From the NCBI RefSeq assembly GCF_000190735.1, contig NC_015177.1, positions 2,480,001-2,544,000 of the forward strand: DNA of 64,000 nt, written 5' to 3'. Source of the DNA: Pseudopedobacter saltans DSM 12145. GTDB taxonomy: Bacteria; Bacteroidota; Bacteroidia; Sphingobacteriales; Sphingobacteriaceae. The notes below the pieces were generated by a model. It was not told the DNA's origin, did no database searches, and worked only from the letters and a program-made list of their open reading frames with translations. The position numbers and the translations under genes were made by a program. Below are positions 19,512-62,056 of this stretch, piece after piece (position 1 is the first letter of the stretch; each line of letters begins with the position of its first letter).

Positions 19512-19574
19512 AGTTTAAAGTAGAAAGTTAAAAGTGCAAAGCTACTTTAAACTCTCTACTCAAAACTTTAGACT
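19512..19574. repeat. Heptad-period repeat with two inverted arms, fusA-rpsJ spacer
   Basis: In the first arm AG(T) recurs at 19512, 19519, 19526, 19533 and 19540; in the second arm ACT recurs at 19544, 19551, 19558, 19565 and 19572. Every step is 7 nt. The arms are inverted relative to each other, and 12 bases (19512-19523 with 19542-19553) pair perfectly. Confidence 0.7.
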
Positions 19575-19578
19575 TTTA

Positions 19579-21696
19579 TTATGCGTTTGCTTTAGCGCCT
19601 TTTACTTTAGCTACAACCTCTTCCTGGATGTTTTTCGGTGCAGCTTCGTAGTGATCAAACTCCATAGTAGAAGTTGCTCTACCTGAAGTAATCGTACGCA
19701 ACTGAGTTACATAACCGAACATCTCAGAAAGTGGGACTAATGCTTTAATTACCTGAGACCCATTTCTAGAGTCAAGACCTTGCATTTGACCACGACGACG
19801 GTTTAAGTCGCCCATAACATCACCCATGTTCTCTTCTGGAGTTAATACTTCAACCTTCATGATTGGCTCCATTAAAACTGGAGAACATTTAGGTAAAGCC
19901 TCACGGTAAGCCATTCTAGCTGCCAATTCGAAAGATAGAGAATCTGAATCGACTGCGTGGAATGATCCATCGATCAAACGAACTTTCATACCTGACAATG
20001 GGTAACCAGCTAATACACCATTAGACATTGAAGTCTCAAAACCTTTTTGAACAGAAGGAATATATTCTCTTGGAATAGCACCACCCACGATTTCGTTAAC
20101 AAATTGAAGAGGTGATTTAACAACATCCCAATCCTCATCTGCAGGAGAAATAACAACTTTAATATCCGCAAATTTACCACGACCACCTGATTGTTTTTTA
20201 TACACTTCGCGGTGTTCTGTAGTTCCGTGAATCGACTCTTTATAAGCAACTTGAGGAGCTCCCTGGTTAACTTCAACTTTGAACTCACGTCTTAAACGAT
20301 CAATTAAGATATCTAAGTGAAGCTCACCCATACCTGATATAACAGTTTGACCAGTATCTGCATCCGTTTTAACAACGAAAGTAGGATCCTCTTCTGCTAA
20401 TTTAGAAAGACCAATACCTAATTTATCAACGTCAGCTTGTGTTTTAGGCTCGATAGCTAAACCAATAACTGGCTCAGGGAATACCATAGATTCTAACACA
20501 ATAGGGTGTTTTTCATCACATAATGTATCTCCTGTTTTGATATCTTTAAAACCTACTACTGCACCAATATCACCTGCTCCAATTCTCTCGATTGGGTTTT
20601 GCTTGTTAGCATGCATTTGGAAGATACGAGAGATACGCTCTTTATTACCTGAACGAGTGTTCAATACATATGAACCAGCCTCTAATACACCTGAGTATGC
20701 ACGTACGAAACATAAACGACCTACGAATGGGTCAGTTGCAATTTTGAAACCTAAAGCAGCGAATGGTTCAGACTCAGACGGTTTACGTATAATTTCTTCA
20801 CCTGTATTAGGATTAGTACCTTTTACCGCTTCAATATCAAGAGGCGAAGGCAATAATTCCATTACTAAGTCAAGCATAGTTTGTACACCTTTGTTTTTGA
20901 AAGATGAACCACAAACCATAGGAACGATTGCATTATCTAAAACAGCTTTACGTAAAGCATCCAAAATTTCACGCTCTGTTAAAGAGTTAGGATCTTCGAA
21001 GAATTTCTCCATTAACGACTCATCATAAGAAGCAACAGCTTCTAATAATTTTTCGCGGTATTCAGCAACTTCATCCAACATATCAGCAGGGATAGGAACT
21101 TCTGTAAAAGTCATACCTTTATCAGCCTCGTTCCAAACCATACCACGATTGTTGATTAAGTCAACTACTCCCTCAAAGCCGTCCTCAGCTCCAATTGGCA
21201 ATTGTAATGCTACTGCATTTGAACCAAGCATGTCTTTAACCTGCTTAACTACTTTTAAGAAGTCAGCACCTGAACGGTCCATTTTGTTCACGAAACCAAT
21301 ACGAGGAACTTTGTAACCATCTGCTAAACGCCAGTTAGTCTCAGATTGAGGCTCAACACCGTCAACAGCTGAAAACAAGAAAACTAATCCGTCTAGTACA
21401 CGTAAAGAACGGTTTACCTCTACGGTAAAGTCAACGTGTCCAGGAGTATCGATTACGTTAACCTGATATTTTTTATTACGGTAGTTCCAGAATACTGTTA
21501 CAGCTGCAGAAGTGATCGTGATACCACGCTCTTGCTCTTGCGCCATCCAGTCAGTAGTAGCAGAACCTTCGTGAGTTTCTCCTAATTTATGGTTAACACC
21601 AGAGTAAAATAAAATACGCTCTGTTGTTGTAGTTTTACCGGCATCAATGTGGGCAGCGATACCGATATTTCTAACTAATTTTAAATCTTTTGCCAT
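19579..21696 (-). CDS. fusA: Elongation factor G
   Basis: The 705-residue translocase of protein synthesis. GTPase motifs are intact: [15 protein letters not shown] near residue 15 (P loop), DTPGHVDFT (G3) and NKMDRSGAD (G4). Domains II-V follow, with GMGELHLDI and a C-terminal [18 protein letters not shown]. It follows rpsG by 108 nt, a spacer with a strong hairpin, and precedes rpsJ. Confidence 0.97.
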
Positions 21697-21730
21697 TATT
21701 TGATTTTTATATCTCTGATTTTTGATGTCT

Positions 21731-21782
21731 AAAGTAAAACACCGATTATCTGTTTAGAACAAAGATATCGGTGTTTTACTTT
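21731..21782. terminator. Hairpin/attenuator between rpsG and fusA
   Basis: A perfect 16-bp inverted repeat (21731-21746 with 21767-21782) with a 20-nt loop. On the minus strand the distal arm ends in TTTTACTTT, so it may act as a partial terminator that lowers fusA relative to rpsL-rpsG, or as an RNase site. Confidence 0.55.
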
Positions 21783-21804
21783 TCTATCAATTCATTCAGT
21801 TAAA

Positions 21805-22272
21805 TTAGAATCTGAAGTGAGAGAATGCTTTATTAGCTTCAGCCATTTTGTGAGTATCTTCTCTTTTCTTAACCGCAGCACCCTCACCTTTAGCTGCAGA
21901 AATGATTTCACCAGCTAATTTTTCCATCATAGTTTTCTCACCACGTTTTCTTGAATAGGTGATTAACCATTTAATACCTAAAGCAATTTTACGCTCAGGT
22001 CTTACCTCTGTAGGTACCTGGAAGTTAGCACCACCAACACGGCGAGACTTAACTTCAACTCCAGGCATAACGTTATTTAAAGCTTTTTTCCATTGCTCTA
22101 AACCATTTTCGCTTGTTTTAGTTTCTACAATCTCGATTGCTTTGTAGAAAATATCGTATGCGATAGATTTTTTACCGTCATACATCATATTATTCACAAA
22201 CCTAGTAACCAAGGTGTCATTAAACTTTGGATCAGGCAGGATAATTCTCTTTTTTGGTTTCGACTTTCTCAT
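21805..22272 (-). CDS. rpsG: 30S ribosomal protein S7
   Basis: A 155-residue uS7: [36 protein letters not shown] and [25 protein letters not shown] primary binder of the 16S 3' domain and, in other bacteria, a str-operon regulator. It lies 19 nt after rpsL; a GGAGG motif sits 8 nt before its ATG. Confidence 0.97.
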
Positions 22273-22280
22273 GTTCTTTT

Positions 22281-22285
22281 CCTCC
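22281..22285 (-). promoter_or_regulatory. Strong Shine-Dalgarno sequence before rpsG
   Basis: GGAGG on the minus strand within the 19-nt rpsL-rpsG spacer, 8 nt from the rpsG ATG. Confidence 0.55.
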
Positions 22286-22291
22286 GTTTAA

Positions 22292-22705
22292 TTATTTCTT
22301 TTTACCTTTTGCTGGAGCAGCTGCCGCTTGTCCTGGTTTAGGTCTCTTAGTTCCGTATTTAGAACGACGTTGATTTCTACCAGCTACACCTGCTGTATCT
22401 AATGCACCACGAACGATGTGGTAACGAACACCCGGTAAATCTTTCACTCTGCCACCACGTACCAGAACAATTGAGTGCTCTTGTAAGTTGTGTCCTTCAC
22501 CTGGAATATACGCGTTAACCTCTTTTCCGTTTGTTAAACGAACACGGGCTACTTTACGCATTGCTGAGTTTGGTTTTTTAGGGGTAGTAGTATATACACG
22601 TGTACATACGCCTCTTCGCTGTGGACAGTTGTCCAACGCTGGGGATTTACTCTTATCCTCCAGAGCTACTCTACCTTTCCTAACTAATTGTTGAATAGTA
22701 GGCAT
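22292..22705 (-). CDS. rpsL: 30S ribosomal protein S12
   Basis: A 137-residue uS12: [40 protein letters not shown] and the [13 protein letters not shown] loop at the decoding centre. The lysines of the TTPKKPNSA motif are the positions linked to streptomycin resistance elsewhere and are unchanged here. The C-terminus has a short Lys/Ala/Pro extension. First gene of the str block. Confidence 0.97.
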
Positions 22706-22784
22706 TAAATAATCTTTATTTTTTTATTTATTAAATGTTTACCCTTTCAAATCAATGCTTTACACACCTAACATAAAAGGACTG

Positions 22785-22815
22785 CAAAGGTAAATTTTTA
22801 TTTTTTGATTTTCAA
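22785..22815 (-). promoter_or_regulatory. Promoter of the rpsL-rpsG-fusA-rpsJ block
   Basis: On the minus strand TTG (22815-22813), 20 nt, then TACCTTTG (22792-22785). The CAGTCC that follows the -7 box is repeated at the rpsH candidate. Predicted leader about 75 nt. Confidence 0.65.
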
Positions 22816-23127
22816 TAGATTATGAAATATTTTTTTGAACACCAACTATATGAAATATCATTGATTTGATTTTTCACTAAAGTCGCAATTAGGAATGCAG
22901 CGAAAGCCCCCTACCTAGTTCAGTTGTAATAAGAAAACGAAAGTATGGCTTATCTTTACACTACTTTCTGATATTTAATAGTTACAGTGCTAATACCGGA
23001 ACCGGGAAACTACCTGATTATATACGTATATATACGTGTTAATAGCGGAACCAAAACATAGATAACAAAAAAAGTATAGGATGGCATATGCTTTGTATCA
23101 GGGCTAATAAATAAAACTATTAAAAAC
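22816..23127. other. Intergenic stretch upstream of rpsL
   Basis: No gene is seen. The right part holds a direct repeat of TATATACGT (around 23020-23036) and the upstream region of the small Lys/Ser-rich ORF. A TATG-C-TTTG stretch near 23087-23096 is a poor fit to the -7 consensus. Confidence 0.4.
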
Positions 23128-23250
23128 ATGCCGAACACAAAAAATCACGACTCAAAAAGCAAGGCTTCTAAAGAGTCAAACGATTCAAAAGGAACAAAAG
23201 GAAAAGCTTCTTCTGAAAAAGAAATGAAAGCTAGTTCTAAGAAAAAGTAA
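23128..23250 (+). CDS. Small basic Lys/Ser-rich protein (40 aa)
   Basis: An ATG-initiated 40-codon ORF starting MPNTKNHDSKSKASKES and ending SSKKK. It is built almost only of Lys, Ser, Glu, Asn, Gly and Ala, with no hydrophobic core, as in disordered nucleic-acid-binding or histone-H1-like tails. Support for it being real: a perfect terminator hairpin begins 6 nt after its stop, and no other plus-strand gene could use that terminator. Function unknown. Confidence 0.55.
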   Translation: MPNTKNHDSKSKASKESNDSKGTKGKASSEKEMKASSKKK

Positions 23251-23255
23251 ACATA

Positions 23256-23288
23256 CAAAAGGCTTTCCTTAATCGGGAAAGCCTTTTG
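23256..23288. terminator. Bidirectional terminator
   Basis: A perfect 13-bp stem (23256-23268 with 23276-23288) and 7-nt loop, with A and T tracts on opposite sides, between the small ORF and the LysR gene. Confidence 0.85.
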
Positions 23289-23289
23289 T

Positions 23290-24180
23290 TTAACCAATTA
23301 TTCTTAAACTATCAGCATATTTATTGATAAACCATTCAATCGCGGGATGCTGATTTATTCGCTGATGAGCCAAAGCAACTTCGGTAAAAATGAAGTCCAT
23401 ATTTAAAGACGTAAAACATAAATCCAGATAACGATATTGTAATGTAGATGACAGTGGTAGTATCGAAACCCCCAAACCTTTATCCACCAGCTGTAAAATA
23501 GAATGAATATTATTGACCTGATGAGCAACATCTGGATAAAAACCAATCCTTTGACATAAATCCATTAATTTCTCATGGAAATGAGGAGCGTAGCCATGAT
23601 TAAAAAACACAAAAGATTTATCATGTAAATACTTAAACAGGTCAGCCTCATTTGCACAACTAATCTTTTCTTTGGTCACCAAAACAAATGGATCTGTAAA
23701 CAAATGTTTTAAACTTAAAACTCCGGAATTTATCGGCGTCCTGAGAATTCCTATATCCAGTTTTCCCTCCTCCAAAGCTACAATCTGCTTTACAGAAGGA
23801 ATTTCGTAAAGTTTCGTTTTAACAAATGGAAACACGACGAGCATCTCTTTTAGAACTGCTACTAAATTTTCATGAAATGTAGAACTGATATACCCAATCC
23901 TTAACTCACCACTAACCGAATCGTGAATTTGTCTGACAACAGCCTTACTTTCAGACAAATTATTAAACAATTTATCAATCTCCTTTTTGAAATAAGCCCC
24001 TGCATCAGTTAGCTCGACCTTTTTGTTGTTTCTGGTAAAAAGAACTACACCAAGTTCGTCTTCCAATTCTTTAATCTGCCTGCTTAAAGGCGGTTGCGAC
24101 ACAAATAACTTAGCTGCTGCTTTCCGAAAATGTAATTCTTCAGCCACTGTTTTAAAATAAAGCAAATGTCTCAATTCCAT
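23290..24180 (-). CDS. LysR-family transcriptional regulator
   Basis: A 296-residue LysR-type regulator. Residues 1-60 form the winged helix-turn-helix (MELRHLLYFKTVAEELHFRKAAAKLFVSQPPLSRQIKELEDELGV is the classical signature, spanning more than the helix itself), and residues about 90-290 form a periplasmic-binding-like effector domain. It is divergent from a methyltransferase gene with only 88 nt between starts, the usual arrangement for a LysR regulator and its target. The effector cannot be told from sequence. Confidence 0.92.
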   Translation of the reverse strand: MELRHLLYFKTVAEELHFRKAAAKLFVSQPPLSRQIKELEDELGVVLFTRNNKKVELTDAGAYFKKEIDKLFNNLSESKAVVRQIHDSVSGELRIGYISSTFHENLVAVLKEMLVVFPFVKTKLYEIPSVKQIVALEEGKLDIGILRTPINSGVLSLKHLFTDPFVLVTKEKISCANEADLFKYLHDKSFVFFNHGYAPHFHEKLMDLCQRIGFYPDVAHQVNNIHSILQLVDKGLGVSILPLSSTLQYRYLDLCFTSLNMDFIFTEVALAHQRINQHPAIEWFINKYADSLRIIG

Positions 24181-24976: not shown

Positions 24977-24977
24977 A

Positions 24978-27848: not shown

Positions 27849-27899
<51 letters not shown>

Positions 27900-28481
27900 C
27901 TACTCCAAATTGGAATGTCTTTTAAACATAATTTGTGGCTTCTGACCGCTCTGTTGCCACAAAGTGTGAAATATAGCATCACAAAGCAGAGATAATGCCT
28001 GTTCAAACAATGTTCCTGCATATTGTTTTGAAACTTTTTCACCATAGTCATATTTACTGGAAGCTGGCAAAAGAATTGTCTGATCTGAAATTTTAGCTAA
28101 TTCGGAATTCTCATCAGTTGTATAGCAAACAACATTCGCCCCTTCCGCTTTTGCTTTTTGTGCAGCTTTAATTACAGAATGTGTTGTCCCAGATCCAGAT
28201 GCTACTAACAATAAATCCCCTTCAGAAATAGCAGGGGCACTAATTTCTCCAACAATACTTGCATGAAACCCTAAATGGATCAATCGCATAGCAAAACCAC
28301 TTAATGCCAAGCCAGAACGCCCAACTCCTTTAACAAAGATTCTATTTGATGTTTTAAGATATTCTGATAATAAGGTTATATCTTCATAATTCAGATTATT
28401 GGCCAATCGAAGATTTTCCTCCAATATCATCTCCAAATTATCTTTCAACGCCTTGGTATTATCTGCTTTTTGTCTGTTCAT
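27900..28481 (-). CDS. SIS-domain sugar-phosphate isomerase, 6-phospho-3-hexuloisomerase-like
   Basis: A 193-residue single SIS domain with VKGVGRSGLALSGFAMRLIHLG, the phosphosugar-binding LLLVASGSGTTHSVI loop and GANVVCYTTDENSELAKISD. Length and wording match HxlB, which turns hexulose 6-phosphate into fructose 6-phosphate in the ribulose monophosphate route. The partner HxlA is not in this window, so the physiological substrate is uncertain. Its stop codon adjoins the microsatellite. Confidence 0.85.
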   Translation of the reverse strand: MNRQKADNTKALKDNLEMILEENLRLANNLNYEDITLLSEYLKTSNRIFVKGVGRSGLALSGFAMRLIHLGFHASIVGEISAPAISEGDLLLVASGSGTTHSVIKAAQKAKAEGANVVCYTTDENSELAKISDQTILLPASSKYDYGEKVSKQYAGTLFEQALSLLCDAIFHTLWQQSGQKPQIMFKRHSNLE

Positions 28482-28703: not shown

Positions 28704-28770
28704 TTGATAGTCCATAGTCGATGTTAAAATCTACTAATGAACTAATGACACCAATGAACCATCTAACTTC
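28704..28770. repeat. Weak heptad-period repeat
   Basis: TAGTC recurs at 28708 and 28715 and TAATGA units follow at 28735 and 28743, with slips of 6 and 8 nt. It contains a 14-mer (28710-28723) whose exact reverse complement stands in the array at 52648-52661. Confidence 0.4.
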
Positions 28771-46593: not shown

Positions 46594-49290
46594 TTAAAAT
46601 AAATCCAGCTGCCCGTTATCCTCCAGGTCTTCTGGATTAGTTATTTCAAAGTCTACTTTTTTTGTTTGTTTAAAGTCGGACACAAACTTAGGCTTAGGGG
46701 TTTCCAAAGGAGTTTCAGTCTCTTCTTCAGCCGATTCGTCCTCGCTTTCATCAAACCCTCCCTCTACGTCAATGTTTTCCTCGTCTAGCTCTTCTTTTTC
46801 TTCCGTTTCTTCCTCTGTTAACAAGGTTACTTTTTGCACATCGTTAGGACTCAACCTGTTTCCCTGAGCCTTTATTCCTTTAACATCTATCATTTCTGAA
46901 AGATCAACTTCCACTTCGTCATGAAGCTGGGTTTTACCTTTTAGAGACTCTATTTTAACGATCGGATTTTTAGCCTTTGTCAGGATCAATAATTTAGAGC
47001 CCGGGTCCTCGTTGATAAAGCCAAAACGTTTACCTATTGCAATATCCTCGAATTTAAAACGCTTGATGTAGTAATTTTTAGACTTGCCATCGAGATGGAT
47101 TGCAGCGTAAATTCGCTCTGGATCATACTTTTCGATTCTTATCATCTTATCATCAAAATGATTCGTTAAATCGAAACTGCTCAATTCATAACTACCATCT
47201 TCAAAAACGCAAAGTATTTTATCTTCCGCCTGAAATTCTCCTAAGAATTTACCGTGACCATTTTCATTCAAACGTTTTACGATATCGTCATACCAAATCT
47301 TTCTTCCGGCAAGTGTCGACACTCCTTTTGATTTCAGGGTGATTTTCTTAATAGCGAATTTGGTTGCAATATTTCCCTGCGAGCCTCTTCCTTTGATTGC
47401 TATTTCTGCAAAATCAATATCAAAGCTTAGCTTCCTAAGTTTAGACATCGGTTTTAATGCGATATTAACAACCTCAGCCTCCCCATTAGGATTTGCCGTA
47501 AAATACAATACTTTCGATCCCTTGGTGCCTTTAGTTAAGTCGTATTCCTTATCCCTGGTAACCCCACCTACAGCAAAACGTTTGATATAAGCCGTCCCGG
47601 ATTTACCATCGCGATAAATCATGTTATAAGTTGTTCTGTCATCATTCTTCTTAAAGATTCCGACATGTAAAATCCCTTTCCCAACGAAAGTTTTATCCTG
47701 TACCTTGGTTACTATAAAACTTCCGTCTTCACGGAAAACAATGATATCGTCGATATCAGAACAGTCGAATAGATATTCGTCTTTTTTTAAGCCGGTTCCA
47801 ACAAATCCATCCTCACGGTTTACATAGAATTTAACGTTCGCCAGGGCAACATGCGCTGCTTCTACTCTATCAAAAGCCCTGATTTCTGTTTTACGTTCCC
47901 TTCCCTTACCAAATTTATCTTTCAGTCTCAGAAAGTAATCTATAGCGAAGTCTGTAAGGTGTCTTAAGTTTTTCTTAACCAGAGTAATATCTTTTTCTAA
48001 AGCAGCCATCTGTTCATCTGCCTTCTTCACGTCAAACCGTGTAATACTACTCATTGGTTTATCAATCAACTTCTTAAAATCTTCTGCCTCTATCTCGCGA
48101 TATAGAGAAGATTTAAAAGGATCGAACAAACGGTGTAATACTTTAACTACTTCTTCAAAGTTTGATGAATTTTCATATTCAGGATTTTTATACATTCCTT
48201 CCTGAATAAATATCTTTAATAAAGAACTGAAAAAAATCTTCTCCTGCAGGTCATGAAGTTTAATTTCAAGCTCTCTCTTCAGTAATGCTTTTGTATAATT
48301 TGTGCTTTCTATGAGTATATCATTAACACTCATAAAATGCGGCTTGTCTTTCTTTATTACACAGGTGTTTGGTGATATGGAAGTTTCACAAGCGGTAAAT
48401 GCGTAAAGTGCATCTATTGTCAGGTCCGGAGAGATACCAGGAGCCAGATGGATAACTATTTCTACGTTTTTAGCAGTATTATCCTCTATTTTCTTGATTT
48501 TTATCTTTCCCTTATCATTGGCTGCAATGATACTGTCAATTAAGCCAGTAGTGGTAGTGGAGTAAGGAATCTCACTAATAACCAAAGTCTTTTTATCCAG
48601 TTCTGATATTTTAGCCCTAACTCTGATTTTACCGCCTCTTTGACCTTCATTATATTGAGAAAAATCAGCCAGACCTCCGGTGGGAAAATCAGGAAGTATA
48701 TTTGGTCTGTTTCCTCTAAGCACTTCTATTGATGCATCGATGAGTTCAATAAAGTTATGAGGCATTACCTTTGTCGCTAAACCTACCGCAATACCTTCCG
48801 CTCCCTGAGCCAGTAACAAGGGAAATTTTACTGGCAATGTAACGGGTTCCCTGTTTCTACCATCATAAGACAACTGCCAGTCTGTAGTGTCCGGATTAAA
48901 AACTACTTCTAAGGCGAACTTGGATAAACGTCCCTCGATATACCTCGCAGCAGCAGCGGAGTCTCCGGTAATAGGATCTCCCCAGTTTCCCTGCGTATCT
49001 ATCAGAAGATCTTTCTGGCCAATCTGTACCATCGCATCTCCGATAGACGCATCTCCATGCGGATGGTATTTCATGGTATTACCAATAACGTTCGCCACCT
49101 TATTAAAACGACCGTCATCCATTTCCTTCAGCGAGTGAAGGATACGACGCTGTACTGGTTTTAGTCCGTCATTGATATGAGGTACTGCCCTATCTAAAAT
49201 TACGTATGAAGCATAATCTAAAAACCAATTTTCGTACAATCCGGAAATAGGTATTACATTATGTAATATTTCGTCTTCGTTTTCTTCCAT
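46594..49290 (-). CDS. parC: DNA topoisomerase IV / gyrase subunit A
   Basis: An 898-residue type IIA cleavage subunit. GLKPVQRRILHSLKEM, MKYHPHGDASIGDAMVQIGQ and the tyrosine of SAAAARYIEGRLSKFA mark the active site; the C-terminal half has beta-pinwheel blades (VSTLAGRKIWYDD, ISEIPYSTTTTG earlier) and ends in a long Asp/Glu-rich tail. It pairs with parE upstream, so topoisomerase IV is more likely than gyrase. The ATG at 49290 is used; the frame also opens with a TTG one codon earlier. Confidence 0.92.
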   Translation of the reverse strand: MEENEDEILHNVIPISGLYENWFLDYASYVILDRAVPHINDGLKPVQRRILHSLKEMDDGRFNKVANVIGNTMKYHPHGDASIGDAMVQIGQKDLLIDTQGNWGDPITGDSAAAARYIEGRLSKFALEVVFNPDTTDWQLSYDGRNREPVTLPVKFPLLLAQGAEGIAVGLATKVMPHNFIELIDASIEVLRGNRPNILPDFPTGGLADFSQYNEGQRGGKIRVRAKISELDKKTLVISEIPYSTTTTGLIDSIIAANDKGKIKIKKIEDNTAKNVEIVIHLAPGISPDLTIDALYAFTACETSISPNTCVIKKDKPHFMSVNDILIESTNYTKALLKRELEIKLHDLQEKIFFSSLLKIFIQEGMYKNPEYENSSNFEEVVKVLHRLFDPFKSSLYREIEAEDFKKLIDKPMSSITRFDVKKADEQMAALEKDITLVKKNLRHLTDFAIDYFLRLKDKFGKGRERKTEIRAFDRVEAAHVALANVKFYVNREDGFVGTGLKKDEYLFDCSDIDDIIVFREDGSFIVTKVQDKTFVGKGILHVGIFKKNDDRTTYNMIYRDGKSGTAYIKRFAVGGVTRDKEYDLTKGTKGSKVLYFTANPNGEAEVVNIALKPMSKLRKLSFDIDFAEIAIKGRGSQGNIATKFAIKKITLKSKGVSTLAGRKIWYDDIVKRLNENGHGKFLGEFQAEDKILCVFEDGSYELSSFDLTNHFDDKMIRIEKYDPERIYAAIHLDGKSKNYYIKRFKFEDIAIGKRFGFINEDPGSKLLILTKAKNPIVKIESLKGKTQLHDEVEVDLSEMIDVKGIKAQGNRLSPNDVQKVTLLTEEETEEKEELDEENIDVEGGFDESEDESAEEETETPLETPKPKFVSDFKQTKKVDFEITNPEDLEDNGQLDLF

Positions 49291-49293
49291 CAA

Positions 49294-49330
49294 CTTTTAA
49301 TGTTTAATGTTTGATGTTGAATTTTTAATG
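49294..49330. repeat. Heptad-period repeat, downstream arm at the four-helix-bundle gene
   Basis: ATG recurs at 49300, 49307, 49314 and 49328 (the 49321 unit reads ATT): a strict 7-nt period. A 20-base part is complementary at 18 of 20 positions to the arm on the other side of the gene (49693-49723). Confidence 0.75.
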
Positions 49331-49332: not shown

Positions 49333-49695
49333 TTAATTATTTTGATTTAAACTTGCTTGAGCAGTTTTTACTATAGATGTCAAAATTCTAATTAGCTCTG
49401 TTGCTTTTTGAAGCTCTATAGAACAGTCTATATCTACGATTTTACTTTTCTCTATTAATAAAAGCCAATATTCACTTTCTCTTGCTTCTTTTGAGGCTAT
49501 TGACATTTTTGCTATAAAATCTTTTTTTGTTTGTGCTGCAGAAGCCTCTCTAACATTTGCACCAATACTTGTTGAACTTCTTAACAATTGCTTGGAGAGT
49601 ACAAATTCTTTATGAACAATCATTGTCTTATAAAACGCTATTATTAACAATGAAAATTCAAAGGATTTATCTAAAATTAGATTATCAGGCTTCAT
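49333..49695 (-). CDS. Four-helix-bundle protein, S23/IVP family
   Basis: A 120-residue all-helical protein of the 23S-rRNA-intervening-sequence (S23/IVP) family: KSFEFSLLIIAFYKTM, KEFVLSKQLLRSSTSIGANVREASAAQTKKDFIAKMSIASKEARESEYWLLLI is the family signature (quoted in part). Related bundles include the Avd accessory proteins of retroelements, but no reverse transcriptase is near. Function of stand-alone copies is unknown. It sits between parE and parC on the same strand, and its start codon lies inside the inverted heptad repeat that flanks it, which suggests it came in as a module. Confidence 0.9.
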   Translation of the reverse strand: MKPDNLILDKSFEFSLLIIAFYKTMIVHKEFVLSKQLLRSSTSIGANVREASAAQTKKDFIAKMSIASKEARESEYWLLLIEKSKIVDIDCSIELQKATELIRILTSIVKTAQASLNQNN

Positions 49696-49723
49696 TAAGC
49701 ATTAAACATTTAACATTAAGCAA
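49693..49723. repeat. Heptad-period repeat, upstream arm at the four-helix-bundle gene
   Basis: CAT recurs at 49693, 49700, 49707 and 49714, then CAA at 49721: a strict 7-nt period in inverted orientation to 49294-49330. The array contains the start codon of the four-helix-bundle gene and the stop codon of parE (49716-49718). Confidence 0.78.
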
Positions 49724-51623
49724 CCACTAACGTCTCTGCTTCAGCGTCAGCCTCTGCTTTCGCTATAATGTCTGCTTCGTCCTTTTCTATTCTCAAGTTC
49801 TGAACAATATGCTTTTGTCTTTCCGGGGTGTTTTTTCCCATATAATATTCCAGTAAGTTCTTAATCTTTACATCAGAAGAAAGAATTACCGGATCCAAGC
49901 GCATATCTTCACCTATAAAGCCTTCAAATTCATTCGGAGAAATCTCTCCTAACCCTTTAAATCGGGTTATTTCTGGTTTATTACCTAATTTATTGATAGC
50001 CAGAACGCGCTCTTCATCACTGTAACAATAAATCGTTTCTTTCTTATTTCTTACCCTGAATAAAGGCGTTTGTAAGATATAAACATGCCCTGTTTTTACT
50101 AAATCGGGGAAGAACTGCAAAAAGAAAGTCAGCAGTAGCAGACGAATATGCATACCGTCAACGTCGGCATCTGTTGCAATCACAATATTATTATAGCGCA
50201 AACCGTCTAAGCCGTCTTCGATGTTCAAAGCATGTTGAAGCAGGTTAAACTCCTCATTCTCATAAACCACTTTTTTTGTCAAACCGAAAGAGTTCAGCGG
50301 TTTACCTTTCAAACTAAAAACGCCTTGTGTATTTACATCTCTTGCTTTGGTAATAGATCCAGATGCAGAATCACCCTCTGTAATAAAAAGCGTAGTCTTT
50401 TTTCTATTTTCCTCGGGTTGCTTTTCATCGTCTAAATGCCATTTACAATCTCTCAGCTTCCGATTATGTAAGCTGGCCTTCTTAGCTCTTTCATTGGCAA
50501 GCTTCTTAATTCCGGCAATATCCTTACGTTCTCTCTCCGACTGTAAAATACGTTTTAAAAGGCCATCTGCCACATCAGGATGTTTATGCAGATAATCATC
50601 CAGCTCTTTTTTTACGAAATCGTTAATAAAAGTCCTTACTGTTGGACCGTCCGGACCAACATTCAAAGATCCAAGTTTAGTTTTGGTTTGAGATTCAAAC
50701 ACCGGTTCCTGAACCCGGATAGAAATAGCGGCTACAATGGACGCCCTGATATCCGATGCGTCAAATTCTTTTTTATAGAATTCTCTGATAGTTTTTACAA
50801 CAGCTTCTCTAAATGCTTGTTGATGCGTACCACCCTGTGTTGTATGCTGGCCGTTGACAAAGGAATAATACTCTTCTCCGTATTGTTGTCCATGAGTCAT
50901 TGCTATTTCAATATCCTCACCTTTTAAATGAATGATAGGATATCGGTTTGTTTCCGCGTCTGTATTTCTTATCAAAAGATCATGCAGACCTTTTTCAGAA
51001 AAGTATTTCTGGTTATTGAAATTAATAGTAAGCCCGGCATTAAGGAAAACATAATTCCAAATCATGTTCTCTACAAACTCCGGTATAAATCTAAAGTTTC
51101 TAAAAATGGTATCGTCGGGAACAAAATGGATTGAAGTTCCATTTCTTTGTGTTGTCTCTATTTCAGGATTATCGCCAATTAACTCCCCTTTGGTAAATTC
51201 GGCCTTTTTTGATTTTCCATCACGATAAGACTGTACGGTAAATGTTGACGATAGTGCATTCACAGCTTTAGTACCAACACCATTCAATCCTACCGACTTT
51301 TGGAAAGCTTTGGAATCATATTTACCTCCGGTATTAATCTTGCTAACACAATCAATCACTTTACCTAAAGGGATTCCACGACCATAATCTCTGACATAAA
51401 TTTTGTGGTCATAAACAGAAATGTCGATTGTTTTTCCAGCTCCCATAACGAACTCGTCGATAGAGTTGTCGACAATCTCTTTTAAAAGAACGTATATACC
51501 ATCGTCATAAGCCGAGCCATCTCCTAGTTTTCCAATATACATACCGGGTCTTAACCGTATATGTTCTTTCCAATCCAGGGAACGGATACTATCTTCACTG
51601 TAATTTACACTAAGTTCTGCCAT
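49716..51623 (-). CDS. parE: DNA topoisomerase IV subunit B
   Basis: A 635-residue ATPase subunit. GHKL motifs: [19 protein letters not shown] and [13 protein letters not shown]; transducer lysine region QTKTKLG; Toprim motifs TEGDSASGS and [14 protein letters not shown] for Mg2+. Length fits ParE rather than the longer GyrB. Its stop codon falls inside the heptad repeat that precedes the four-helix-bundle gene. Confidence 0.93.
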
Positions 51624-51634: not shown

Positions 51635-51673
51635 AAGTAAAAAGGTGAGCATGAAAAGTAAAAAGCTAATCGC
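51635..51673. repeat. Heptad-period repeat upstream of parE
   Basis: AAG recurs at 51635, 51642, 51656 and 51663 with the unit at 51649 diverged: steps of 7 or 14 nt. Located directly upstream of the parE start. Confidence 0.6.
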
Positions 51674-52638: not shown

Positions 52639-52669
52639 ACTTATTACCATCGACTATGGACGATAAGAC
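52639..52669. repeat. Heptad-period repeat downstream of DUF4403 gene
   Basis: AC recurs at 52639, 52646, 52653 and 52660 (7-nt steps), then at 52668 after 8. Bases 52648-52661 are the exact reverse complement of 28710-28723. Confidence 0.6.
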
Positions 52670-57390: not shown

Positions 57391-57403
57391 TTTATGGGTT
57401 GTG

Positions 57404-57437
57404 AGTTAAAGTTGAAAGTTCAGAGTTGAAAGTTTTC
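57404..57437. repeat. Heptad-period repeat upstream of the SSS gene
   Basis: GTT recurs at 57411, 57418, 57425 and 57432 (7-nt steps), with one more at 57405 after a 6-nt slip. Lies 14 nt upstream of the transporter start codon. Confidence 0.65.
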
Positions 57438-57487
57438 TTATAAGTCGGATTAATTATTCGCACTGTATTTTTGTTTATTTCTTTATG

Positions 57488-57549: not shown

Positions 57550-57625
57550 ATTACCTTAACACCATTTATATTGATTCTACACAACATATTATTCATCAAG
57601 AGGATACAGTGCTTTTCTCTCAAAC

Positions 57626-57651
57626 GCAATGTCCCTTTCAGGAGACATTGC
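57626..57651. terminator. Possible terminator after the oxidoreductase gene
   Basis: An 8-bp stem (57626-57633 with 57644-57651) with a 10-nt loop, 27 nt past the stop codon at 57679; no clean T run. Confidence 0.35.
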
Positions 57652-57678
57652 TTGGAAGTAAAAATGCTTTTAACTCAT

Positions 57679-58749
57679 TTATAATTCTACCTGATTTTCC
57701 TCTAACAAACTCTTCACTTTTACAGGTATCCCTGTTTTCAGCGATCGGTCCATAGCCTGCAATAACGCAAAAGTGCCAATACCTTCTTTCATATCAGGAT
57801 AAGCAGTAAAACCTTGTTCTATACTATCCGCAAAATATTCGATATAGTTCTGATATTCTCCTGCGTGATGGCTTTGGCCTTCGAAACGGTAATAATATTT
57901 CAAAGTAGCATCTCCCCAGGTAATAATTTTGTCTTCACCAGTTCTATCTGTAACGGCATAACGCAATTCATGGTAATCTGCCTGACTTGCGCCTTCTGTA
58001 CACCTTAAAATAGTGCTCATTCCGCTATCACGATAAGTTGGCTGTGTCGGGCTGGTATAAACGCCGCTTACACGAGCAATTCTTCCATCTGTAGCTTTGA
58101 AAATAAAGTGCATAGTGTCTTCGTTCTTTAAGCCGCCAGCTTTTCCGTTTGAGCTTAACATTCCGTACCCCATCACTTCTTCGATATTTGGTAAATACCA
58201 ACGGATAAAATCTACCGGATGGCTAAGTCCTCCATATAACCATTTAAAAGACGCATCTAAAGCCCATGGCTTTTCTAAAAACCAACGGTGATCCGCATGG
58301 TAATGGGCCTCTATAGTAATTAAATCTCCAAGTATGCCTTCTTCAAAATCCTTACGCTGTCTTTTTGCCGGCTCGAAGAATCGTGAACTTTGTCCAACAA
58401 AAACCTTCTTTCCGGTCTTTCTAGCTAACTCTAATAACTCATTCGCATCTTTTAGGTTATCTATAAAAGGTTTGGTGCAGATAACATGCTTATCATGAAG
58501 CAAAGCTTGCTTAATATGCTGAGCATGTAAATGATCTGGTGTATAAATCGCTATGATATCAATTTCCTTATCATTTAACATTTCTTCATAACTTGTAGTA
58601 TAAGAATGAAAATCAAATTCTTTAGCTCGCTGTTTACAAGTTTCTTCACTTAAATCGCACATGGTTTTCAATTGAACCTTTTTGCTATTTAAGACAGCAG
58701 AAATGGTACTTCTGCCCTCTCCTAATCCTAATATTCCTATTTTAAGCAT
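57679..58749 (-). CDS. Gfo/Idh/MocA family oxidoreductase
   Basis: A 356-residue NAD(P)-dependent oxidoreductase: Rossmann GILGLGEGRSTISAVL, then IIAIYTPDHLHAQHIKQALLHDKHVICTKPF with the EKP-type motif as CTKPF, and a C-terminal alpha/beta domain with WLYGGLSHPVDFIRWY. The family acts on sugars and inositols. Its place among sugar-catabolic genes suggests an oxidised or rearranged monosaccharide; the substrate cannot be read from sequence. Confidence 0.88.
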   Translation of the reverse strand: MLKIGILGLGEGRSTISAVLNSKKVQLKTMCDLSEETCKQRAKEFDFHSYTTSYEEMLNDKEIDIIAIYTPDHLHAQHIKQALLHDKHVICTKPFIDNLKDANELLELARKTGKKVFVGQSSRFFEPAKRQRKDFEEGILGDLITIEAHYHADHRWFLEKPWALDASFKWLYGGLSHPVDFIRWYLPNIEEVMGYGMLSSNGKAGGLKNEDTMHFIFKATDGRIARVSGVYTSPTQPTYRDSGMSTILRCTEGASQADYHELRYAVTDRTGEDKIITWGDATLKYYYRFEGQSHHAGEYQNYIEYFADSIEQGFTAYPDMKEGIGTFALLQAMDRSLKTGIPVKVKSLLEENQVEL

Positions 58750-58788
58750 TTTTAATATTTATTTTTAACCACAAGAGCACTATAATTT

Positions 58789-58820
58789 AGTACTTAGTAT
58801 CAAGTATATAGTATCAAGGC
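58789..58820. repeat. Heptad-period repeat (AGTA type)
   Basis: AGTA recurs at 58789, 58796, 58803 and 58810, then AGG at 58817: a strict 7-nt period. Upstream of the oxidoreductase gene. Confidence 0.75.
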
Positions 58821-58920
58821 TGGTAGGCTAAAGCCTTTATATTAAAACCAAACTTTCAGCATTAACTCATTCGATAAACAACGAAAGAACAACATCAACC
58901 CTACCTTTCAGACTTAGTGA

Positions 58921-58983
58921 ACCATCAACCATGGACCATAGACTATGAACAAACTTCAGTCCTCGGACTTCGGACATCTCAAT
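58921..58983. repeat. Nine-unit heptad-period repeat
   Basis: AC recurs at 58921, 58928, 58935, 58942 and 58949, then TC at 58956, 58963, 58970 and 58977: nine consecutive 7-nt steps. It reaches the end of the mutarotase-like gene (stop at 58987). Confidence 0.75.
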
Positions 58984-58986
58984 ACG

Positions 58987-59679
58987 TTATTTAAAAAACA
59001 CCCAGGTTTCATCTTTCTGTGTTCCTGGTATTCCTTCCTGATATTTTGCCATAATGGCGTTCCATTCTTTCACTTTTGGATTGTCCTTTTCTGTTAATGG
59101 GTTCAACTCATCCAACGTTTTTCCTTTCGGAATAGCGATAATCAGCATCAATTGCTTTCCGTTCCTGAACATGATTAAATGCTGAAAAGAAGCATTACAA
59201 AAGCCTTGCGCAATCTCTGGCCATTCCTGATACTGCGTTTTATGATATTTCATGTATTCTTTTTGCAAAGTTGTATCTGCTACCAAATTTGCTGTAAGAA
59301 TGTAATACTCAAATTCTTTTACTGTTGAAGTATCTGCGCAATGACTTCTTTCAAAATGATAATAGGGCTGATTGTAAAACTTAATTGCATTGCTTTTAAA
59401 AGAAGCCGTTAAGGATGTTTTAACCACCAAGCTATCGTTACTTTGTGCAAAAACGATATAATGGTCTTTCCATCTTTTAATTACCGCATCTTTTAAATCA
59501 GCTTGTGCTGACGCCCAATTTTGCAAGCTATCGGTAAAGCGTTGCGTGGTATCCCTTGAAAGGATTTCCCACAATACCGGTTCGAATTGCTTGTGCGTTT
59601 TTTCCTTTTGTTTGGGTTGACAGGCTGTAAAAACCAGAAAAAGCGCAAACAAACAAATTTTTGAAAACACCAATAACAT
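58987..59679 (-). CDS. L-rhamnose-mutarotase-like lipoprotein, apparently duplicated domain
   Basis: From the ATG at 59679 this is a 230-residue lipoprotein (LVFTACQPK). The C-terminal half (FEYYILTANL...YHKTQYQEWPEIAQGF...LIMFRNGKQLMLI...EWNAIMAKYQ) matches the DUF718/L-rhamnose mutarotase dimeric ferredoxin fold; the N-terminal half (LWEILSRDTTQRFTDSLQNWASAQADL...HYIVFAQSNDSLVVKT) looks like a diverged second copy. An in-frame extension up to 59916 is rejected because its 79 extra codons translate a dispersed repeat and overlap the next gene; 59718 is an alternative start. Confidence 0.72.
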   Translation of the reverse strand: MLLVFSKICLFALFLVFTACQPKQKEKTHKQFEPVLWEILSRDTTQRFTDSLQNWASAQADLKDAVIKRWKDHYIVFAQSNDSLVVKTSLTASFKSNAIKFYNQPYYHFERSHCADTSTVKEFEYYILTANLVADTTLQKEYMKYHKTQYQEWPEIAQGFCNASFQHLIMFRNGKQLMLIIAIPKGKTLDELNPLTEKDNPKVKEWNAIMAKYQEGIPGTQKDETWVFFK

Positions 59680-59733
59680 ATTATTCTGTTCCGGTTTTTC
59701 CTTAAAGTATCGGTACATCTTTTTTCTATGCTT

Positions 59734-59776
59734 CCCCTTATCCGCCCTTTGGGCACCCTCTCCCTCAGGGAGAAGG
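59734..59776. repeat. C-rich dispersed repeat, left copy
   Basis: A C-rich stretch with CACCCTCTCCCTCAGGGAG, containing small self-complementary segments. A related stretch in inverted orientation lies at 59834-59872; together they frame about 60 nt between the mutarotase-like and beta-helix genes. Confidence 0.55.
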
Positions 59777-59833
59777 AGAAAAACACAATATTTTGCTATA
59801 AAATACAGCTTCCTCAATTCGCTCTTCCATTTT

Positions 59834-59872
59834 CCCTCTCCTGTGGAAGCGGGACTAAGGGTGAGGGCTCGG
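59834..59872. repeat. C-rich dispersed repeat, inverted right copy
   Basis: Contains CCCTCTCCTGTGGAAGCGGG and GGGTGAGGG; its reverse complement follows the same C-rich plan as 59734-59776 and 61838-61900. Confidence 0.5.
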
Positions 59873-59893
59873 TTTTGATTTTCTCTCATCAGC

Positions 59894-61816
59894 TTATTGA
59901 CTACCTGTTTTGACAATCGCCTTATTTATCTCCCAATTTTTATCAGCAGCTGCTTTATATTTTCTTAAATGCTGATAGTCTTTTTCCAGACCCGCCTTTT
60001 CTTTAATTTCTGCTTTTACCATTGGACCGTTGTTTTCCCATACATTTCCCGGACCGTTGGCATTCTGTAGAAACTTTTCTGCAGGGCACCAGTTATCCTT
60101 TACATTGAAATAGGCAGAACCTTCGTCTGTGTACAAGTAAAACCAATGATCTGGAATATGAGCAAAAGGTGCTTTATAAATACTATCAATATAATTTTCT
60201 TTGATAGAAGATCCAGGTTGCGCCGATAAGGTATAAACCGCCGCCACATCGTACATATGTTTTCCATAATGCGTGATCTTATTGGCTAAAACATGATTGT
60301 TGCTCATGGCATTGATGGTTTTAGTCCATCCCCAGCCTAAAGAAATCCCGGTATAAGAGATCTCGTTAATTTCGTTATTTCTGATAGTGGTATTCTTGAC
60401 ATAACCTGCTCCTATTCCCACACAACCCCAATCGTCATTGGTTACATCTGTAATCAAATTATTCGCTATAAGCGTATTTCCGCTAACTTCTCTGTTATCT
60501 TTAGGATTATAAGGTAAGTGAGTTTCAAAAGCTTCATCGGAAAAAACGCCCAATAGAATGGCCGAACCACCGATATCTTTAAATAAATTTCCTTCTATTT
60601 TATCAAAATGATTTCCTCTATGATAATCTAATCCGGTTGAAGCCAAATGCATGAATTTACAATTCCTGAAGGATGTGTTCTCGCTATACTTCACCTCTAC
60701 CGCAGCTCTCGGACGACCTATCCAACCTTGGTTTTCTAATCCGGCTTTATCCGGTGTTCCCGGTTGTTTCAGCTTATAAGCTTCTAACAAATACATTCCA
60801 GCCTGTAGGGGCACATGCCCTTGCTGAGAGGGGCGTAACCAGGAGGTATGCGAAAAAGTAATTCCTTCGAAATGCAAATGCTTTACCGGTTGGTCTATAG
60901 TTCCCTCTATTCTAACCAAATTCTCCAGATAAGGAATGATTACATTGGCCTTTGCCAGATCTTCACCTTTTCTTGGCCAGTAATAAATTTTACGATTTAA
61001 TTTATCCAGATACCATTCCCCTTCCTGATTAAGGAATTGGATTGAATTGTTCAGGTAAAAACCAGAATTACCAGATTCCTTACTTATCCAGGGTGCAGGC
61101 CAGGGATGTTCTGATTGCACTTTGCTTTCCGGCTCGTAAAAAGAAAGTTTAATACTATCGCCCTGAAATTGCATGTGCTTAATCCTCAAGTTTGCGATTG
61201 CCCACCATTGATGGATAAACATTTCCATTCCCGCCTGAAACTTAAAACCTTTGATCTTAGGCTTAGGAATCCAGCAGGTTTGCTCTTCTTTATTCCATGA
61301 CAATATCCTATCCATATTGCCATAAGCAGTACTCATGCTTCTAATCCCTTTAACATTATTTACCCAAAACTGCCTGAAGTCCAGAACCTGATCGCCAATT
61401 ACAGGTGCATCTGCCACCCAAACTTTCCCTTTAGCTTCGGCAGGTAATCCACTCACATTTCCGGCTTTCTTCCAGCCTTTTACTTTTATTCCACCACTTA
61501 GTACAACCTCTTCATTCGAGGCATTTTTTATAATGGTTTTACTTTGCTCTGTCCCTGCATCTTCCGGTTTAATAAAGACAGATTCTTCCAGAAAGTAGTT
61601 TCCACCTTTCAGAAAAATCGTAGCACCATTTTTTACCGATTCATCATTTAATCTCCTTTGCTCGCGAACCTTTCTAATAGCCATGGACAATGTCGCCAGA
61701 GGTTGTTCTTTAGTTCCTGCATTTTTATCACTTCCGTTGATAGCCACCCAAATTTCAGAAGCCGAGCATAGTCCGGTACTGAATAAGGCAATACAAAAAG
61801 TAATGTACTTTATCAT
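59894..61816 (-). CDS. Secreted right-handed parallel beta-helix protein, probable carbohydrate-active enzyme
   Basis: A 640-residue protein with a signal peptide (1-19, ending CSASE). IWVAINGSDKNAGTKEQPLATLSMAI is the start of a parallel beta-helix fold; regular helix turns follow (NTSFRNCKFMHLASTGLDYH, NNLITDVTNDDWGCVGIGAG, TTIRNNEINEISYTGISLGWGW). The order of features recalls GH120/GH141-type or polysaccharide-lyase helices; I cannot choose a family. It neighbours a GH2 gene, so it probably cleaves the same glycan. Confidence 0.75.
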   Translation of the reverse strand: MIKYITFCIALFSTGLCSASEIWVAINGSDKNAGTKEQPLATLSMAIRKVREQRRLNDESVKNGATIFLKGGNYFLEESVFIKPEDAGTEQSKTIIKNASNEEVVLSGGIKVKGWKKAGNVSGLPAEAKGKVWVADAPVIGDQVLDFRQFWVNNVKGIRSMSTAYGNMDRILSWNKEEQTCWIPKPKIKGFKFQAGMEMFIHQWWAIANLRIKHMQFQGDSIKLSFYEPESKVQSEHPWPAPWISKESGNSGFYLNNSIQFLNQEGEWYLDKLNRKIYYWPRKGEDLAKANVIIPYLENLVRIEGTIDQPVKHLHFEGITFSHTSWLRPSQQGHVPLQAGMYLLEAYKLKQPGTPDKAGLENQGWIGRPRAAVEVKYSENTSFRNCKFMHLASTGLDYHRGNHFDKIEGNLFKDIGGSAILLGVFSDEAFETHLPYNPKDNREVSGNTLIANNLITDVTNDDWGCVGIGAGYVKNTTIRNNEINEISYTGISLGWGWTKTINAMSNNHVLANKITHYGKHMYDVAAVYTLSAQPGSSIKENYIDSIYKAPFAHIPDHWFYLYTDEGSAYFNVKDNWCPAEKFLQNANGPGNVWENNGPMVKAEIKEKAGLEKDYQHLRKYKAAADKNWEINKAIVKTGSQ

Positions 61817-61837
61817 TTCTTTGTTAGTTTTCAGTAA

Positions 61838-61900
61838 GCCTCACCCCCAACCCCTCTCCTCCAAAGGAGTCCCTTCGGGACGAAAGAGAGGGGAGCAGGG
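61838..61900. repeat. C-rich dispersed repeat, third copy
   Basis: GCCTCACCCCCAACCCCTC starts it; inside are two mini-hairpins (CTCC..GGAG and TCCC..GGGA). Lies between the beta-helix and GH2 genes; same family as 59734-59872. Confidence 0.6.
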
Positions 61901-61937
61901 CAGTGCTTGTATTTATTTTCAATTTATCGCTTTGGAT

Positions 61938-62056
61938 ATTTGCCTTTAGCCTTTCTCTTTCAGCTCTCTCAACTTCGGTCCTCGGATACCCAACTCCGGA
62001 ATTTATAGCCTCTTAGCAAATCGCTTTAAGCCTTATGCTTTTAGCTTTTAGCTTAT
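61938..62056. repeat. Long heptad-period repeat (17 units)
   Basis: About 17 units of 7 nt run from 61938 into the stop codon of the GH2 gene (62053-62055). GCC recurs at 61942 and 61949, CGG at 61976, 61983 and 61997, and GC-type anchors (AGC/CGC/TGC) at 62015, 62022, 62029, 62036, 62043 and 62050. The consensus changes along the tract while the period stays nearly constant. Confidence 0.75.

Follow-up and report, generated by a model that had tools for sequence, protein, structure and literature searches.

We analysed a stretch of 64,000 nucleotides (the window; positions 2480001-2544000) of the genome of Pseudopedobacter saltans DSM 12145, a single contig of 4,635,236 bases designated here as G000. 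Its intergenic regions contain about ten tracts in which a short motif recurs every 7 nt. We found that such heptad arrays accompany genes encoding small four-helix-bundle (4HB) proteins of TIGR02436, the S23 or 23S-rRNA-intervening-sequence-protein family, and we regard this association as practically certain. The arms on the two sides of a 4HB gene are mostly inverted and follow a strand rule; within the window's subfamily, they comprise about five units and keep their heptad. They change in length by whole heptads, the enclosed gene is under purifying selection, and one gene junction is occupied in alternative ways in related genomes. A joint reading that we favour, with some reserve, is that the tracts are arms or stray arms of 4HB cassettes resembling intervening sequences (IVSs), at both ends of which a pentameric ring would contact one heptad per subunit.

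Heptad arrays flank 4HB genes

The window carries one complete cassette, located between two topoisomerase genes. Its sole gene (49333..49695, minus strand, 120 aa) encodes a product matching TIGR02436 with 94.2 bits (cut-off 24). The 5' arm (49693..49723, minus strand) consists of TTTAATG-type heptads on the gene strand and overlaps the stop codon of the upstream neighbour, a gyrB/parE-type topoisomerase subunit gene (49716..51623, minus strand) whose matches lie below curated cut-offs. The 3' arm (49294..49330, plus strand) is an inverted copy with TTTAATG heptads and abuts the start of the downstream neighbour, the gene for DNA gyrase/topoisomerase IV subunit A (46594..49293, minus strand; NF009397, 1409 bits, cut-off 780). 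Tandem Repeats Finder (TRF) assigns period 7 to both arms and 5.9 copies to the 3' arm, and the plus strand reads TTTAATG at one side and CATTAAA at the other. A previous model-made reading of the bare letters (the sequence-only reading) had listed both tracts correctly and had missed the enclosed gene and the inverted pairing. Among 14 parE-type junctions read, G000 alone has a 4HB cassette.

TIGR02436 is present in 21/21 genomes searched, with 108 matches, 10 of which contain an internal stop. We fetched and scored 96 of these loci and compared them with 673 other genes; the loci span the 21 genomes, while all control genes come from G000. A lag-7 high-scoring segment pair (HSP) of score at least 12 was found on either flank in 56/96 4HB loci versus 49/673 controls (p 3e-30), and a lag-8 HSP in 19/96 versus 21/673 (p 2e-8). 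No enrichment at p<0.05 was detected beside 4HB loci at lags 5, 6 and 9-12 (p 0.056 at lag 6). Taken together, lag-7 or lag-8 arrays accompany 69/96 4HB loci and 65/673 control genes; with one locus per orthologous site, the count is 36/50. At some 4HB loci, period 8 or, once, period 6 stands in place of 7 (L061, L059, L069, L052).

We then compared the two flanks of each locus. The inverted match between a 5' flank and its own 3' flank had a median score of 20. Swapping partners lowered this to 11 (Mann-Whitney 4e-39), and control genes gave 12 (2e-34); in direct orientation, the median at 4HB loci was 13. On the gene strand, up arms are G-rich (G>C in 43/59, C>G in 11/59) and down arms C-rich (G>C in 7/60, C>G in 52/60). 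Four to six units make up 56 of the 119 arrays beside relatives' 4HB genes. Heptad-profile similarity was 0.66 within the same locus, 0.34 across loci and 0.29 in direct orientation. Across all loci, protein identity correlated with heptad similarity (rho 0.56; 0/300 permutations), a correlation much of which is due to the window's subfamily. G000 itself has eight TIGR02436 genes, seven of which show short-period repeats on both flanks by eye, mostly inverted and with a different repeat for each copy. One G000 locus, L052, has direct period-6 repeats, and at another, L055, no flank repeat was seen by eye.

The window's subfamily across phyla

A scan of a genome collection with the window protein yielded 174 confirmed loci, 80 of them named. 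By record title, the named loci belong to Bacteroidota, Campylobacterota, Gammaproteobacteria, Verrucomicrobia, Planctomycetes and others, and the non-Bacteroidota loci, mostly metagenome-assembled, include the named isolates Fangia hongkongensis, Rheinheimera sp. EpRS3 and Geomesophilobacter sediminis. Period 7 occurs on at least one side in 72 of the 77 loci with full flanks, and any other lag in at most 4/77. Lag-7 rates are 77% upstream and 86% downstream for the 44 Bacteroidota loci, and 76% and 82% for the 33 others (classified by record title). Heptad profiles of Bacteroidota and other-phylum loci without shared neighbours have a similarity of 0.64 (1267 pairs), compared with 0.31 between the window's subfamily and the 4HB arms of relatives. 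The consensus heptad of the subfamily is A-[AG]-T-[GT]-T-T-N.

A profile built from 32 non-Bacteroidota loci was run over 1.64 Mb, covering both strands and open reading frames (ORFs). The 3' arm of the window cassette was the second-ranked match (49299, plus strand, 27.3 bits) and its 5' arm the seventh (49690, minus strand, 21.6 bits). No match exceeded 17.6 bits when intergenic sequence was simulated (four times the length, one strand). The subfamily profile finds an up arm in 76/77 loci and a down arm in 76/77, and the predicted strand outscores the wrong one for 99% of up arms and 97% of down arms. Four to six heptads are present in 53/76 up arms and 52/76 down arms; the medians are 4.9 and 5.0, and the distribution peaks sharply around five. 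These counts come from a profile that was trained on the same arms and does not fix arm length.

Plasmids carry similar loci. We collected 25 plasmid records with a 4HB match and examined 12 of them (10 from cyanobacteria, one each from Bernardetia and Treponema saccharophilum). Lag 7 was the best lag on both flanks in 11/12 (the exception being L389), often with near-perfect heptamers, and in 9/10 of the cyanobacterial loci. This suggests that the heptamer repeats of cyanobacteria may share an origin with 4HB arms. On cyanobacterial plasmids, some heptad-armed 4HB genes are bordered by cas2 and cas1 (L382, L385) or by csx2 and cas1 (L391).

Arm evolution and insertion sites

The sequence-only reading had proposed comparing orthologous intergenic regions, and length change is indeed seen there: in 22 orthologous flank pairs, not all independent, we counted 15 indels of 7 nt, 7 of 6 nt and 2 of 8 nt. 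The flanks of L079 and L080, which encode identical proteins, differ by 7 and 77 nt, and those of L078 and L080 by 21 and 21 nt; the comparison of L078 with L079 includes a difference of 36 nt, which is not a heptad multiple. When letters were shuffled within heptad columns, the arm-to-arm match went from 15.3 to 14.1 in one set and from 17.2 to 15.8 in another. The excess over column-permuted arms has p 0.0017 across 91 pairs, and individual pairs reach p<0.05 in 14% of 36 and 9% of 55. The two arms of a cassette hence mostly share a motif and a pitch rather than a base-paired stem. Each DNA strand has the shared motif in its 5' arm, or both arms have it as double-stranded DNA. Since the arms are inverted and the 3' arm holds the complement, a protein that reads a single motif on the transcript as single-stranded RNA is disfavoured.

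The cassettes are co-directional with both neighbours in 72/77 and 74/91 loci and antisense to both in 2 and 4, respectively; for ordinary G000 genes, both neighbours agree in 59%. The typical cassette would lie sense within an operon, and the clearest cases appear to begin directly after a stop codon. The argC-argD junction illustrates alternative occupation (15 argC junctions read). The gap is 4 nt in G004 and 11 nt in G014. G000, G002 and G008 have a 4HB cassette with AAGTT arms, while G006, G011 and G012 have a different 4HB gene with AAAGC arms at the identical insertion point. G001, G007 and G010 carry a gene-less inverted CCTCACCC repeat, G013 a gene-less period-7 array and G017 another insert; in G003 and G005, argD was not found as the next gene after argC. 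The gene-less inverted element that stands here where other genomes have 4HB cassettes, of the form CCTCACCC...GGTGAGG, measures 137-221 nt (L290, L291, L294).

All 4HB pairs at 78% identity or more have at least one neighbour in common, and 21 pairs at 55-78% identity have no common neighbour within about 1.1 kb. Cassettes thus appear to remain at one site for long periods and to occur at new sites at times. In the 9 of 20 4HB pairs that were measurable, dN/dS is 0.04-0.16, with dS above 1 in several; by this measure, the 4HB protein is under purifying selection.

Structure of the 4HB protein

The AlphaFold2 model of the window protein has four helices (predicted local distance difference test score, pLDDT, 95.2). 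The best Foldseek match is 2rld, an S23-family protein from Bacteroides (template modelling (TM) score 0.80-0.85, E 1.5e-7 to 7.7e-6, 47-50% identity), and 2gsc from Xanthomonas also matches (TM 0.67-0.76, E 0.005-0.04). Chains of Avd align with TM 0.55-0.73 and non-significant E-values (0.2-0.84), and unrelated four-helix folds rank alike. The 2RLD and 2GSC entries contain five chains each, and the available text of PMC4990558 describes the X. campestris S23p as a homopentameric toroid. By analogy, the window protein may form a pentamer as well.

Other repeat-flanked gene families

Two further families of small genes were inspected for flanking repeats. GxxExxY genes (L224-L253, from the same 21 genomes), which we take to be PD-(D/E)XK-like, have inverted flanks and form cassettes of 9-nt period of the CACAGAGAA type. 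Period 9 was found in 11/25 of them versus 53/673 controls (p 2.7e-6), and no period-7 excess was seen (2/25 versus 83/673 controls). Among the six plasmid GxxExxY records fetched out of eight, a lag-9 HSP of at least 10 occurs on at least one side in 3/6 and a lag-7 HSP in 0/6, counts that are suggestive only. In five genomes (G002, G004, G006, G007 and G008), the parE-type gene is followed by a GxxExxY gene at a distance of about 0.3-1.0 kb. The small GIY-YIG genes (L254-L283) are flanked mainly by direct repeats (median 42), with inverted scores of at least 17 in 41%, and show no period-7 excess. By eye, several GIY-YIG flank repeats resemble copied tRNA 3' ends plus a terminator. With period 7 at 4HB genes, period 9 at GxxExxY genes and direct repeats at GIY-YIG genes, the period appears to follow the protein family.

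Period 7 in the window and its genome

The sequence-only reading had described ten tracts with a period of 7 and drifting anchors, and all ten read as claimed when set in rows of seven. Seven of them are detectable unaided by lag-7 scans, TRF or HSP search: lag-7 scans recover 19512, 49294, 57404, 58789, 58921 and 62016-62062 (within 61938-62056), and TRF and HSP search recover 49693. The tracts at 51635, 52639 and 28704 gave no stand-out signal in lag-7 scans or TRF. No Rfam family reached its gathering score within the window.

For genome-wide scans, we used 864 kb, about 19% of G000. Two of the three extra sample blocks (2.06-2.28 and 4.06-4.24 Mb) had been picked for prior matches to a window tract, a possible bias; the first block (1-400 kb) was not selected for matches. 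Intergenic autocorrelation is 0.2969 at lag 7, whereas lag 6 gives 0.2927, lag 8 0.2915 and lag 9 0.2896; a further peak is seen at lag 21, and none is clear at 14 or 28. Coding autocorrelation is 0.2632 at lag 7 and lag 8 alike, without a lag-7 excess. At HSP scores of at least 14, 26 lag-7 segments are intergenic and 2 coding; elsewhere in the range 5-13, each lag yields between 1 and 13 intergenic segments, the runners-up being lag 11 (13) and lag 8 (11), and an order-3 Markov model gives 0.0 lag-7 segments. Both 'coding' segments are 4HB arms assigned to ORFs by a simple ORF caller. In the unselected 1-400 kb block, lag 7 gives 9 intergenic and 0 coding segments, and lags 5, 6 and 8-13 give 0-5 intergenic ones. 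The genome-wide lag-7 excess is small, and its source is local tracts. Neither outcome that the sequence-only reading had named as counting against it, a lag-7 signal no stronger than that of neighbouring lags or equal frequency inside genes, was observed.

The claim that the tracts avoid coding regions holds for these counts and is not absolute. An array of two heptad families lies in frame inside the valyl-tRNA synthetase (ValRS) gene of G006 (L399, contig C73 near 8024), and this ValRS has 17 additional residues compared with the best solved ValRS in the alignment. Periods of 8 or 6 are seen at times in related arrays. One intergenic region of G000 (L409, 2083800-2085800) appears by eye to be a mosaic of about five heptad families, as if arrays were inserted into or beside one another. 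A repeat of another kind, a perfect AACT tetranucleotide tract of 12.8 copies, occupies 27849-27899 of the window and adjoins the ORF at 27900-28481; similar AACT/TAGT tracts are found repeatedly in G000.

Gene-less arrays

Eight tracts of the window enclose no gene, and none of them is assigned a strand. We compared them with 4HB flanks (untrimmed, window cassette left out) and with up to 120 control intergenic segments. Seven of the eight match the 4HB flanks of relatives better than control DNA does (control fractions 0-0.042), although the controls exclude known period-7/8 arrays, and part of the resemblance may reflect periodicity itself. The inverted array of the AAAGT family at 19512..19574, between the genes for elongation factor G (EF-G) and S10, resembles a flank of L049 (control fraction 0.008), as does the AGTTGAA array at 57404..57437 (0/120 controls equal). 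The AGTATCA array at 58789..58820 resembles a flank of L076 (0/120 controls equal), the mosaic of ATAGTCC and AGTCCGA families at 58921..58983 a flank of L144 (0.008) and the TAGCTTT array at 61938..62056, strongest at 62016-62062, a flank of L102 (0.008). A weak AAAGTAA array at 51635..51673, absent from the HSP list, has a control fraction of 0.017, and a weak tract at 28704..28770, GTCCATAGTCGATG followed by a repeat of about 8 nt, one of 0.042. The weak tract at 52639..52669, GACTATGGACGATA, was not distinct from control intergenic DNA in this comparison (0.45).

The 19512 tract occupies the fusA-rpsJ junction, where an inverted repeat is visible by eye directly after the EF-G stop codon in 9/9 same-genus genomes searched (13 are known). 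The repeat families differ among these genomes, and those of G001 and G003 do not have period 7. In other genera, the junction measures 12-30 nt in 4/5 genomes; that of G013 is 84 nt long and contains an inverted repeat of another kind. One of 12 fetched gene-less arrays (L401, in G001) adjoins a relative of the gene upstream of L055, too few to prove gene loss. A strict rule by which a gene-less array occurs only where a cognate 4HB gene exists was rejected on the ATAGTCC arrays of G000 and on the fusA-rpsJ repeats, for which the counts are given below.

Discussion

An intact cassette would consist of about five heptads, one 4HB gene of the S23 family and about five inverted heptads. Five units per arm and five-chain relatives suggest one heptad per subunit. 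In the reading that we favour, the 4HB protein would form a homopentameric ring like its solved relatives, each subunit would contact one heptad, and one arm would be the predicted binding site of one ring. Rings at both ends would define and serve the cassette, in its maintenance, its movement or both, and gene-less arrays would be arms that moved or had lost their gene. The sequence-only reading had taken the pattern to imply a process acting on period and had offered three candidates. A protein contacting DNA every 7 nt now appears the best-supported of them, as the arrays flank one gene family and, in the window's subfamily, their motif and strand are kept across phyla.

Several findings weigh against this interpretation. 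At threshold, 27/96 loci of relatives lack a lag-7/8 array, and among the eight G000 loci only six pass HSP of at least 12 at lags 6-8, one of which does so at lag 6. An inverted score of 17 is attained by just three of the eight, and the window locus itself has 14. Direct scores of at least 17 occur in 30% of 4HB loci versus 9% of controls, and direct similarity exceeds inverted similarity in 3/12 plasmid loci (L385, L390, L391). Among relatives alone, the correlation of protein identity with heptad similarity drops to a rho of 0.11, and five pairs at 60% identity or more average 0.295. Profile matches in called ORFs of G013 reach 24.2 bits, the unit counts carry the training bias mentioned above, and the net charge of the 4HB protein is merely mildly positive. 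Most arrays, in G000 as elsewhere, are found away from 4HB genes (2 near and 77 not, in five genome samples, with the 4HB loci of G013 unmasked). G000 has ATAGTCC arrays, yet its 4HB flanks carry other heptads, and fusA-rpsJ repeats rank a 4HB locus of their own genome first or second in only 4/9.

The main rival is an RNA element, an IVS within mRNA, whose arms would pair in the transcript so that RNase III cuts the 4HB segment out or apart, the heptads being mere stem material. The inverted arms and the mostly sense cassettes fit such an element, and so does the Coxiella IVS with an S23p ORF, which ends in a 28-bp stem, undergoes RNase III cleavage and carries heptameric repeats of variable number upstream, as far as the available text of PMC4990558 describes it. 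The arm-to-arm match slightly above that of column-permuted arms also points in this direction. Once the heptad consensus is kept, however, this excess is small, and a stem would not need a fixed heptad, strand and unit number across phyla. We therefore consider this explanation unlikely, though it could hold jointly with the ring reading. A base-by-base RNA stem as the sole constraint was rejected, the excess over permuted arms being small though significant.

The remaining rivals account for less of the data. Replication slippage with rapid mutation, also put forward by the sequence-only reading, would make the arrays drifting microsatellites without any protein, and the 7 a polymerase contact length; according to the available part of PMC4679880, Mrazek et al. 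2007 suggested that the polymerase footprint measures 7 nt. Whole units are indeed gained and lost, as the spike of indels at 7 and the near-identical loci L079/L080 and L078/L080 show (L078/L079 being 36 nt apart). Slippage nevertheless leaves unexplained why the arrays sit close to one gene family, why the two arms carry one motif in inverted form, why a strand rule holds and why motifs are kept across phyla, and GxxExxY loci of the same genomes show 9 rather than 7; as a full cause, we rank it very low. Still less probable in our judgement are two others. A retroelement in which an Avd-like 4HB protein acts in trans for a reverse transcriptase, the arms being ends of the copied RNA, would suit the sense orientation and the four-helix fold, a resemblance in which, as described above, unrelated four-helix folds do equally well. 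RVT_1 is unmatched in 12/21 genomes including that of the window, however, while 4HB genes are present in all 21; a reverse-transcriptase partner was rejected on its lack of detection in G000, and the template-jumping polymerase of the sequence-only reading is not supported for the same reason. Alternatively, the gene-less inverted tracts could be ordinary repetitive 3'-end structures, terminators or attenuators, with a secondary link to 4HB genes. Of 57 co-directional gene-less arrays, 19 start no more than 13 nt past a stop codon, and the repeats behind the EF-G stop codon fit as well. The sequence family at one site nevertheless changes between close relatives with repeat style constant, the window holds no Rfam match at gathering score, which also led us to reject a known RNA family there, and the 4HB flanks are left unexplained.

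More broadly, and tentatively, S23/4HB homopentamers might constitute an unrecognised class of counting nucleic-acid readers, with a ring of five subunits for five heptads. They would mark both ends of mobile single-gene cassettes, which would pass from operon to operon and from phylum to phylum, with a heptad of its own for each subfamily. The scattered heptamer repeats seen in cyanobacteria, Beggiatoaceae, Bacteroidota and rRNA IVSs would be footprints of this class, and the GxxExxY cassette of period 9 a second such system. We consider this broader proposal somewhat less likely than not. To our knowledge, bacterial heptamer repeats have no accepted explanation. S23/4HB proteins are widespread among phyla, and the available text of PMC4990558 describes them as being without known function. 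If both belong together, both questions become testable with a small protein, a 35-nt array and a predicted stoichiometry of five, and scattered bacterial heptamer repeats may be tied to one uncharacterised protein family. The system would also be a compact model for protein geometry imposing a period on DNA, and annotators would be warned that such tracts may be cassette parts rather than random microsatellites. No link between 4HB genes and intergenic heptad arrays was found in the literature searched, which lay outside subscription journals.

Comparison with known systems

Heptamer repeats are known from cyanobacteria as short tandemly repeated repetitive (STRR) sequences. Like these and the TAACTGA repeats, the window tracts are heptamer arrays that lie between genes, close to start and stop codons. 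The TAACTGA repeats are copies of one heptamer, whereas the window tracts are degenerate, belong to several families and are tied to 4HB genes. The available part of PMC4679880 reports TAACTGA repeats in Beggiatoaceae, cyanobacteria and five Bacteroidetes, and a term search of that part gave no mention of a four-helix-bundle gene. The supposition that degenerate or heptameric arrays had never been described in Bacteroidota, or are limited to this phylum, is thereby in need of amendment, since 4HB genes of other phyla, cyanobacteria among them, have such arrays on their flanks too.

The four-helix bundle of Avd, from diversity-generating retroelements (4DWL, 8UB7), resembles the window protein at weak E-values, as unrelated four-helix folds do; unlike in those elements, no reverse transcriptase (RVT_1) was detected in G000. 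TRAP is a ring protein that reads a short motif at fixed spacing on single-stranded RNA in one orientation. By analogy, each subunit here would read one short motif, with the motifs spaced at a constant pitch, although TRAP is an unrelated protein and most arms described here are inverted. REPIN/RAYT systems and miniature inverted-repeat transposable elements (MITEs) combine a single copy that has the gene with gene-less copies that match it at other sites. The present cassettes differ from them in having no transposase, the sole gene between the window arms being 4HB, and in having ends with a pitch and no fixed sequence across families.

The closest known systems are the rRNA IVSs of Leptospira, Coxiella and Xanthomonas, for which the available text of PMC4990558 gives the same S23 protein family, inverted ends, an element of about 430 nt, an ORF in sense orientation, as here, and heptameric repeats upstream in Coxiella. 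Inverted terminal repeats are present in our cassettes as well, with some loci direct and a base-by-base stem weakly supported. The window cassette differs in lying between topoisomerase subunit genes instead of in a 23S rRNA helix, and in the genomes studied here there are several copies at different sites, with heptad arrays common on both arms. By position, the window cassette is thus not an rRNA IVS, but it is built like one and may function alike.

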